Shown: in pieces, positions 22,341-24,407 of the stretch
Numbering within the stretch: the stretch's first letter is position 1
Layout of the letters: each line of letters opens with the position of its first letter
Source: Candidatus Sulfotelmatobacter sp.
GTDB taxonomy: Bacteria > Acidobacteriota > Terriglobia > Terriglobales > Acidobacteriaceae
Assembly (NCBI GenBank): GCA_036500765.1
Contig: DASYBM010000004.1
Coordinates: forward strand, 1,054,001 to 1,118,000
Direction: 5' to 3'
Length of the DNA stretch: 64,000 bases
Program-made: the position numbers and the translations under genes
The notes under the pieces: model-generated
Database searches by the model: none
What the model saw: the letters and a program-made list of their open reading frames with translations, nothing else
Told to the model about the DNA's origin: nothing

Positions 22341-24407
22341 ATGGACTTGCAGGCGAAAATCCGCACCATTCCCACCGAGCCCGGCGTATACCTCTATAAA
22401 AACGCCGAGGGCGACGTCATCTACGTCGGCAAGGCGAAGAACCTGCGCAGCCGCGTTGCCAGCTACTTTCATGAAGCACGATGGGAAGACGCCAAGACTG
22501 GCACCCTGGTGCGCGAAGCCATCGACGTCGACTACATCGTCGTCGCCAACAACAAAGAGGCGCTGGCGCTCGAAAATAATCTGATCAAACAGCGCAAGCC
22601 GCGCTTCAACATTCTGCTGCGCGATGACAAAACTTATCCCTACGTGAAACTCACGTTAGGCGAACGCTTCCCGCGCGTCTACGTAACGCGCCGCCTGCGC
22701 AAAGACGGCAGTTGCTACTACGGACCATATTTTCCTGGAAATCTCGCGTACCGCATTGTCGACCTGATTCATCGCAATTTTCTGATTCCTTCGTGCAAGG
22801 TCGACTTGACGCGCTTCCATCCCCGACCGTGCTTGCAGTACTACATCAAGCGCTGCCTCGGTCCGTGTGTGAAGGAGTTAACCACGCCGGAGGCCTACCA
22901 GGAAGCGGTACGCGACGTGAAATTGTTTCTCGAAGGTCGTCCGACGGATCTGAGCCGCTCGTTGCACGCGCGCATGGAGCAAGCAGCCGCCGCGCAGGAG
23001 TATGAGCGCGCCGCAAGATATCGCGATCTCATTTCGACGGTCGAGCAATTGCAGGAGCGCCAACGCATGGCCGCCGCCGAGGGCGACGACGCCGACGTCT
23101 TCGGCTATCACTACGAAAACGGAATGCTGGCGGTGAACCTGTTCCACATGCGCGCCGGCAAAATGGTCGACCGCCGCGAATTCTTCTGGGAAGAACTGCC
23201 GGAGTTCGCGGCTCCGACGGATCTGGACAGTAACACAGACCATGCGGAGACAGATGACCATGTGGGGACGGACGCATTCGTCCGTCCGGGCGAGCCAGGC
23301 TCGCCAGCGCATTTGGCCGACACCGCCGATACGCTGGAAGGAAACCCCAGCCTAGCTTCGCTCGGCACGGACGGACGAATGCGTCCGTCCCCACGTGAAA
23401 CCTCCCCACATGAGACCTCTCCATTCCCACATGAGCCGGCGCCATCCCAACAATCATTCTCGCCGGGAGAATTCTTCTCCGCCCTACTCAAGCAGCTGTA
23501 CATCGGTCAGCCCTACGTCCCGCGCCATCTCTACGTGCCCGTCGATTTTGAAGATCGCCAAGAACTCGAGGACCTGCTCTCCGACCAGCAGTCGGACAAG
23601 AGTGTCCGACCCACGCGAGTCCACATTCTGGTTCCGCAGCGCGGCGACAAGCGCTCGCTGATCGATCTGGCGGGCAACAATGCCAAGCAGTCGTACGATC
23701 AGCGCTTTCGTGTGCTCAAACCCAACGCGCGTAAGATTCAGGAAGAACTGCAGGAAGCGCTCAGCCTGCCCGACCTGCCGAAGCGCATCGAGTGCTTCGA
23801 CATCTCGCACATTCAGGGCGCGGAGACCGTCGCGTCCATGGTGGTGTGGGAAGAGGGCAAGATGAAAAAGTCGGACTACCGCAAATTCATCATTCGGACG
23901 GTCGAAGGCGTCGACGATTTCGCCTCGATGCGCGAGGTCGTGACCCGCCGCTACAAACGGATGGTTGACGAAAACAAGCCCATGCCGAGTCTTGTGTTGA
24001 TCGACGGCGGGCTCGGCCAACTGCACGCCGCGGCCGAAGCCCTCGACTCGCTGGAGATCATCAACCAGCCGCTGGCCGCCATCGCCAAGCGTGAAGAAAT
24101 TCTCTATGTCTACGGACAGGAAAAAGATCCGATCGCTCTCGATCATCACTCGCCCATGCTGCACCTGATTCAACTGATTCGCGATGAGGCGCACCGATTC
24201 GCCGTGACCTTCCATCGCAAGCGTCGCCAGATGCGCGACCGCTCCACCGAACTGTTGGAAATTCCCGGCGTCGGCGCCGGCACAACACGGCGATTGCTGG
24301 AACACTTTGGCAGCTTGCAATCCGTAAAGCAGGCTGACACGGCAGCACTTTCCGCCGTCGTCACCAGGACGCAGGCTGAGGCGATCAAGAATCACTTTCG
24401 GAAATAG
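22341..24407 (+). CDS. uvrC: Excinuclease ABC subunit C with two in-frame repeat insertions
   Basis: 688 residues. In order: GIY-YIG nuclease (EPGVYLYKNAEGDVIYVGKA), a Cys-containing segment (RPCLQYYIKRCLGPC), the UVR motif (EQAAAAQEYERAARYRDLI), the RNase H-like 5' nuclease (DISHIQGAETVASMVVW; IDGGLGQLHAAAEAL) and a C-terminal helix-hairpin-helix (LEIPGVGAGTTRRLLEHFG). It makes the dual incisions of nucleotide excision repair with UvrA/UvrB. Residues about 296-386 between the UVR and RNase H-like parts are foreign: they include VGTDAFVRP, GTDGRMRPSP and a Thr/Ser/Pro/His repeat, and are encoded by the REPIN-like element at 23262. A second insertion, SDKSVRPT, comes from 23591-23614. All domains remain in frame. 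Confidence 0.95.
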   Translation: MDLQAKIRTIPTEPGVYLYKNAEGDVIYVGKAKNLRSRVASYFHEARWEDAKTGTLVREAIDVDYIVVANNKEALALENNLIKQRKPRFNILLRDDKTYPYVKLTLGERFPRVYVTRRLRKDGSCYYGPYFPGNLAYRIVDLIHRNFLIPSCKVDLTRFHPRPCLQYYIKRCLGPCVKELTTPEAYQEAVRDVKLFLEGRPTDLSRSLHARMEQAAAAQEYERAARYRDLISTVEQLQERQRMAAAEGDDADVFGYHYENGMLAVNLFHMRAGKMVDRREFFWEELPEFAAPTDLDSNTDHAETDDHVGTDAFVRPGEPGSPAHLADTADTLEGNPSLASLGTDGRMRPSPRETSPHETSPFPHEPAPSQQSFSPGEFFSALLKQLYIGQPYVPRHLYVPVDFEDRQELEDLLSDQQSDKSVRPTRVHILVPQRGDKRSLIDLAGNNAKQSYDQRFRVLKPNARKIQEELQEALSLPDLPKRIECFDISHIQGAETVASMVVWEEGKMKKSDYRKFIIRTVEGVDDFASMREVVTRRYKRMVDENKPMPSLVLIDGGLGQLHAAAEALDSLEIINQPLAAIAKREEILYVYGQEKDPIALDHHSPMLHLIQLIRDEAHRFAVTFHRKRRQMRDRSTELLEIPGVGAGTTRRLLEHFGSLQSVKQADTAALSAVVTRTQAEAIKNHFRK
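23262..23394. repeat. REPIN-like inverted pair inside uvrC
   Basis: 133 bp. The left end is GTGG plus arms GGACGGACG and CGTCCGTCC around CATT (23262-23287). The right end is the same hairpin inverted, with loop AATG, followed by CCAC (23369-23394). Just inside the left end is a perfect hairpin GGCGAGCC/GGCTCGCC. Outside, CATGTGG and CCACGTG extend the symmetry. It encodes UvrC residues 308-352 and keeps the frame with its flanks. Flanking TCCCCACATGAG words repeat to about 23435. Confidence 0.85.
23591..23614. repeat. Solo REP-like hairpin inside uvrC
   Basis: Perfect arms GTCGGACA and TGTCCGAC surround AGAG, followed by CCAC, the inverted head. It encodes residues 417-425 (QSDKSVRPT) just before VHILVPQRGDK, at a point where relatives have a short loop. 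Confidence 0.75.

Follow-up and report, generated by a model that had tools for sequence, protein, structure and literature searches.

The name REP implies an extragenic location. In Pseudomonas fluorescens SBW25, only 14 of the 1,067 occurrences of the commonest 16-mers overlap with genes, and Bertels and Rainey (2011, PMC3116915) proposed the doublet as the unit. In their account of GTAG/CGTC REPs, Di Nocera et al. 2013 (PMC3733652) noted that the extragenic location is not strict: REPs and REP dimers lie within ORFs, with most intragenic GTAG repeats in Opitutus terrae and many repair genes, including UvrABCD, among the hosts; linkers and loops were proposed as tolerant sites, and different REPs occur near the same recB site in two Xanthomonas species. 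In the parts of that report available to us the only acidobacterium is Koribacter, which is treated for its TIR-flanked transposases. A second precedent is provided by the Rickettsia palindromic elements, which are about 150 bp long and are translated in frame in protein genes (Ogata 2000, 2002; via PMC10969869 and PMC3733652).

The segment described here lies within uvrC, in a window (the whole stretch of DNA analysed, 64,000 nt) from Candidatus Sulfotelmatobacter sp. of the Acidobacteriota. The element itself is a REP, and intragenic REPs of this kind are already known elsewhere; the suggestion of the sequence-only reading that a REP-like family colonising coding genes in Acidobacteriota would be new therefore falls as regards the kind of phenomenon, UvrABCD being among the hosts reported by Di Nocera et al. 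2013 (PMC3733652). Shared with those GTAG/CGTC REPs are the intragenic position, the repair genes and the tolerant linkers and loops, whereas a genus-wide series of empty and filled sites and covariation of the stem were found here and not in the available parts of that report. With the REPINs of SBW25 the family has in common GTGG-type palindromes, inverted pairs and association with a RAYT; it differs from them in its larger intragenic fraction, at least 14 of 58 sites, and in the predominance of single elements among the exact copies. Like the Rickettsia palindromic elements, the gene-internal copies are palindromes that lie in frame in protein genes and would be translated; they are set apart from these, as described, by being GTRG-tagged and RAYT-linked. 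A search of titles and the opening lines of abstracts in the open-licence PMC literature found nothing on REPs inside Acidobacteriota genes, which is weak evidence; as far as searched, the novelty lies in the phylum, in how large a share of the copies is intragenic, in an allele series that spans the genus at a single site, and in stem changes that occur in pairs within coding sequence.

An inverted REP pair within uvrC

The uvrC gene (22341-24407, forward strand; 688 aa) was identified from the ORF list and from Pfam matches to the GIY-YIG, UVR, RNase H-like and HhH domains, and it has an expanded linker (23208-23459, forward strand; approximately residues 290-373), recognised by linker length comparison and predicted to be disordered from AlphaFold2 pLDDT. 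The sequence-only reading had reported an inverted pair of GTGG-headed hairpins at 23262-23394, and direct inspection, pattern search and folding all bear it out. That is, the left REP core, GTGGGGACGGACGCATTCGTCCGTCC (23262-23287, forward strand), recurs as an inverted copy at 23369-23394 (reverse strand), so that two REPs are inverted around a spacer, as in a REPIN. In each REP, a 26-nt core (GTGG head, 9-bp stem and 4-nt loop) precedes a second hairpin, which is more variable. Sequence reading and comparison with 59 copies place this second hairpin at 23288-23305 (forward strand; gggcgagccaggctcgcc) in the left REP and, in imperfect form, at 23350-23366 (reverse strand) in the right REP. 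In the uvrC frame the left core is translated as VGTDAFVRP and the inverted right core as TDGRMRPSP. Two more CCCACATGAG tails follow at 23395-23435 (reverse strand), possibly as remnants of REP ends. With up to three mismatches, the hairpin pattern has 3 matches in the window against 0.10 expected from shuffles, and the single-stranded DNA fold of 23255-23402, in which the left arm pairs with the right arm, reaches -59.5 kcal/mol (z -10.6; equalled by 0 of 200 shuffles). An Rfam scan of 22100-24500 gave no match.

As had also been claimed, the pair keeps the frame and lies between two domains, which Pfam places at residues 208-236 (UVR) and from residue 372 onwards (RNase H-like). Codon 308 begins at 23262 and is the GTG of the left head, and the pair spans UvrC residues 308-351; its 133 nt, about 44 residues (some 45 had been estimated), are no multiple of 3. 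The uvrC ORF stays open throughout; of the pair's three frames on each strand, one contains a stop. The FWE-to-FFSAL distance is 288 nt here and 66 nt in the relative G007. In an AlphaFold2 model built from 54 sequences, residues 291-370 have pLDDT values below 50 with mostly confident structure on either side, and the linker with its REPs is predicted to be floppy and disordered; domain placement in the model is unreliable, as the pTM is 0.35. The domains flanking the linker show dN/dS values of 0.03-0.06 in nine pairwise comparisons, which indicates strong purifying selection on them. The REP insert would be translated as a flexible linker of this DNA-repair enzyme.

A dispersed family with copies in genes

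The own genome (5.04 Mb, 17 contigs) contains 78 strand matches to the core with up to three mismatches; 19 of these were dropped as the same palindrome on the opposite strand, and the resulting 59 readings correspond to 58 sites, the two uvrC arms together being counted as one. The reversed-pattern control gave no match in this genome. The hairpin is therefore not confined to uvrC but belongs to a dispersed family, as the sequence-only reading had supposed. The head is GTGG or GTAG beside a short hairpin, mutated in two of the 59 readings (GCGG, ATGG), and CAY is often found before it; the boundaries of the element are blurred. A looser pattern, which was derived from this genus so that distant forms may escape it, occurs in each of 37 genomes from the genus (Candidatus Sulfotelmatobacter with its relatives) and in none of 24 outside; its reversed control matched once, in G057.

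The label REPIN stands for the inverted pair at uvrC but not for the family. Among the 19 exact sites, uvrC alone is accompanied by an inverted copy from its own subfamily (within 700 nt, with at most 5 mismatches, a search that would miss partners of other subfamilies), so that the doublet is not the common replicating unit, and the usual unit of the exact-copy subfamily is a single REP with its second hairpin. A related subfamily also builds compact inverted pairs, for instance in L075, L079 and L081, and in the PurL gene (L025 961-3024) two related REPs lie inverted and in frame, which makes it the second gene with an internal REPIN-like unit. Elsewhere in the window, another REP family (GTAGCGCCGGCG type) is represented by a single copy at 1210-1231, which has one mismatch; in L035 that family flanks a Y1 transposase gene.

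Colonisation of coding genes, another claim that was upheld, extends to at least 14 of the 58 own sites, which lie within genes supported by Pfam domains or orthologue alignment, the intragenic position of the remaining 44 being without such confirmation. The host genes encode aconitase, a DUF255 protein, an aminotransferase, UvrC, a DUF1385 protein, an E2 acyltransferase, a phage portal protein, a class II ribonucleotide reductase (RNR), a DUF4015 protein, an ABC transporter, PurL, FtsK, UvrD and a hydantoinase. For the counts we relied on Pfam and orthologues because a strict codon-score classifier missed uvrC, RNR and PurL and called E2 on the wrong strand; L001, L013, L016, L030, L070, L072 and L082 were left out of the 14, their copies being N-terminal, in a tail or without domain support. 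The extragenic location implied by the name REP is thus contradicted by uvrC and 13 other own sites, and the family shares with the Rickettsia elements the property of forming in-frame palindromes in protein genes. A second example in the window is an exact REP copy (3245-3270, reverse strand; hairpin 3245-3266) within a class I/II aminotransferase gene, whose frame it keeps (ORF from stop to stop at about 2608-3978, reverse strand); it was recognised by pattern match and comparison with relatives. In alignments with PDB sequences, the RNR and aminotransferase inserts fall in stretches that are longer than those of the best solved relative; a structure prediction for RNR (mean pLDDT 28.4) was not used. 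The phage portal protein gene (L012 681-2042) has an in-frame REP copy, and the family therefore seems to enter prophage genes too. In the first linker of the E2 acyltransferase (L011 778-2277) we also observed SSAGVPPAVAGASRPR, which looks like the GTAGCGCCGGCG-type REP family in translated form.

Ten of the 19 exact sites are intragenic, compared with 4 of the 39 diverged ones (Fisher p 0.0008), and one identical 26-mer is common to ten genes of the own genome. The excess of exact copies in genes could reflect either young insertions that have not yet been purged or coding copies that stay intact longer, the data being compatible with both. The gene-internal habit is not confined to this genome, and its rate varies between genomes: in G025, 7 of the 40 copies taken (59 places) lie in supported genes, with one-sided domain support for the MutS_V protein, and the corresponding figure for G001 is at least 4 of 40 copies taken, from 152 matches of which 65 were listed. 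All 11 forward copies in supported genes of the own genome read GTG in frame, a common frame that tolerance alone does not explain. Only 3 of 7 forward copies do so in G025 and G001, and a fixed reading frame as a rule of the family was rejected on this ground. A 44-nt GTGG consensus that we composed from core and second hairpin has no stop in any of the six frames, and its GTAG version has one stop, in one frame. Openness in six frames is a property of this unit and not of the uvrC pair, since the 133-nt pair has stops.

Empty and alternative alleles in relatives

A composite query in eight relatives was used to compare alleles of the host genes. Empty orthologous sites were found for aconitase in 5, for the aminotransferase in 4 and for PurL in 2 of 8 relatives, and for RNR in 3, for the ABC transporter in 3 and for the DUF255 protein in 2 of 7 relatives. 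Other REP variants occupy the same place in other species, the E2 gene of G002 carrying the variant of the own genome, while FtsK showed no recognisable REP in any of 7 relatives. Alignment of UvrC across relatives, a check proposed in the sequence-only reading, revealed no conserved loop, the linkers of some genomes being near-empty or holding unrelated elements. In the 33 genus genomes of the tree, the uvrC linker contains REP-derived sequence in 20, contains an unrelated TGTCATCCTGAG palindrome in 9 (two genomes, G012 and G016, hold both elements together), is nearly empty in three (G007, G029 and G005) and is of another kind in three; labels were assigned by linker reading, with the decayed G006 and G021 and the split G017 counted as REP. 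The TGTCATCCTGAG palindrome is itself a dispersed repeat, present in 20 of 25 genus genomes searched and in 0 of 16 others. A third repeat is nested within the uvrC REPs of G001 and G014, and a similar repeat, GCCCTGAGCGGAGTCGAAGGG, lies just upstream of uvrC in the window (22259-22279). Sister species differ in their uvrC linkers in the pairs G027/G011 (support 99), G024/G005 (100) and G004/G017 (100, dS 0.255; the label of G017 is based on two contig ends). The uvrC gene of G017 is split over two contigs that end at the REP point, and that of G031 (L106, L349) loses its frame in the linker, either as a broken allele or possibly through an assembly error.

Covariation of the stem was followed in a set of 30 different in-frame uvrC sequences, the variable positions having been left unconstrained in their selection. 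Pair 10/19 is C-G in 10 sequences, G-C in 10 and A-T in 4, and pair 8/21 is G-C in 14 and A-T in 6, with a standard pair in 24 of 30 sequences in each case; rows with 5-6 mismatches include noise and the sequences share descent. Changes in pair 10/19 alter the amino acid on both sides, those in pair 8/21 on the 3′ side only. The paired changes are more in keeping with replacement by other REP variants, or with a hairpin under selection, than with selection on the peptide.

That the segment is a native UvrC loop, palindromic by chance and not mobile, is scarcely credible. Most of the 33 genus UvrCs do have a lengthened linker, and linkers of other Terriglobales also vary widely, but the same core recurs at 57 other sites, the three near-empty linkers are joined by the more distant G052 and G054 with hardly any linker, and sisters carry unrelated elements; the dispersed copies and empty sites led us to reject both a conserved-loop and a single-copy reading. 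A selected module, in which the REP linker or an RNA or DNA hairpin would tune UvrC or uvrC expression, for example as a mutator adaptation (a speculation made for REPs in repair genes by Di Nocera et al. 2013, PMC3733652), could draw on the covariation of pairs 10/19 and 8/21 and on the repair genes among the hosts (uvrC and uvrD here, a MutS_V protein and an Lhr helicase in G025). We consider it improbable, as the linker content differs between sisters and is nearly absent in three species, copies also sit in unrelated genes, and the covariation is also expected if variants were copied whole from other REPs. A stronger case, plausible if somewhat short of probable, can be made for a single filling of the uvrC site in the genus ancestor by a composite of REP and TGTCATCCTGAG, the species differing mainly by loss and decay. 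G012 and G016, with both elements, would fit, as would the common frame of the forward uvrC REPs among those shown. Furthermore, a right arm bearing a GGCCCGC-type hairpin is common to the uvrC TGTCATCCTGAG copies and missing from most of the other genomic copies shown, which points to one origin followed by many losses, or to exchange. Against this, many independent losses would be required, the stem variants depend on the species, and the labels do not appear to cluster on the tree, the Fitch counts being not clearly below those for shuffled labels (9 changes for the 9 TGTCATCCTGAG tips, shuffled mean 8.0; 10 for the 20 REP tips, shuffled mean 11.1). Repeated insertion at uvrC is a candidate reading, not a proven one.

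Mobility and fate of the inserts

The proposal to look for a RAYT gene was fruitful in relatives, where REP-flanked RAYTs occur, but the own genome yielded no close relative of the cognate RAYT that is intact. The nearest one there is 47% identical, broken and beside two REPs of another family; the other four RAYT hits are 24-32% identical, and no family-A REP lies within 450 nt of the 7 Y1 transposase hits of this genome. A first scan of 36 RAYT loci likewise gave no family-A REP within 450 nt; the flanked RAYT was found after 27 loci from four REP-rich genomes had been added and a search with the candidate RAYT had been made. In the 21 RAYT loci examined, inverted family-A REPs flank the gene on both sides in G001, G019, G004 and G015 (the last with an in-frame TGA), and these RAYTs are 72-100% identical and about 160 aa long. 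In G010 a family-A REP is present on one side of the gene, at a contig end. Some of the more distant RAYT relatives are flanked by related REP subfamilies, others by unrelated REPs or by none that could be detected.

Spread by recombination or gene conversion between REP copies, instead of transposition by a RAYT, would agree with the lack of an intact close RAYT relative in the own genome and with the identical 26-mer in ten own genes, whose orthologous sites mostly hold other variants (the E2 gene of G002 having the same one). It is nevertheless unlikely, because REPs flank the RAYT in relatives, as in known REPtrons, and because the empty sites demand a real insertion at some point. A related possibility, still improbable but less so, is that coding REP sites are not static but are repeatedly overwritten, through RAYT action or gene conversion, with variants drawn from the genomic REP pool. 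Linkers would then be rewritten in concert across the genus; bearing on this, the uvrC stem arms change together between species while ten own genes share the identical 26-mer. The insert might also be present in the gene and absent from the protein, through ribosome bypass or removal at the RNA level. The hairpin is strong, and the byp elements of yeast mitochondria are a precedent for bypass, but readable linkers keep an open frame (29 linkers; 63 of 79 loci, in overlapping sets), which would not be needed if they were bypassed, and the uvrC linker is predicted to be disordered; we regard such removal as very improbable.

We therefore favour, with considerable confidence, a REP family that is mobilised by a RAYT, has a unit without stops in any frame, and persists where linkers and loops are permissive. 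According to this explanation, the uvrC segment is an inverted pair of REPs from a genus-specific, GTGG/GTAG-tagged family that is, or formerly was, mobilised by a cognate RAYT, an HUH/Y1 tyrosine transposase recognising the tetranucleotide and the hairpin. By analogy with the known enzyme class, the REP would move as single-stranded DNA. Because all six frames of the GTGG unit, core and second hairpin together, are free of stops, a frame-preserving insertion would be translated. Inserts would be close to neutral and persist where extra residues are tolerated, that is, in disordered linkers such as that of UvrC or in loops within domains. They would then decay, gather other palindromic repeats and be lost or replaced between species, with UvrC remaining under purifying selection.

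For those working with such genomes the finding carries a warning, since gene-internal repeats lengthen protein models and can split assemblies, as with the uvrC of G017. For the biology of the family, it suggests that selfish hairpins provide important bacterial enzymes with new segments in bacteria other than Rickettsia, too. Moreover, one genus offers nearly empty, single, paired and nested alleles of one and the same site, so that the question whether such inserts are neutral, harmful or useful is open to direct experiment.
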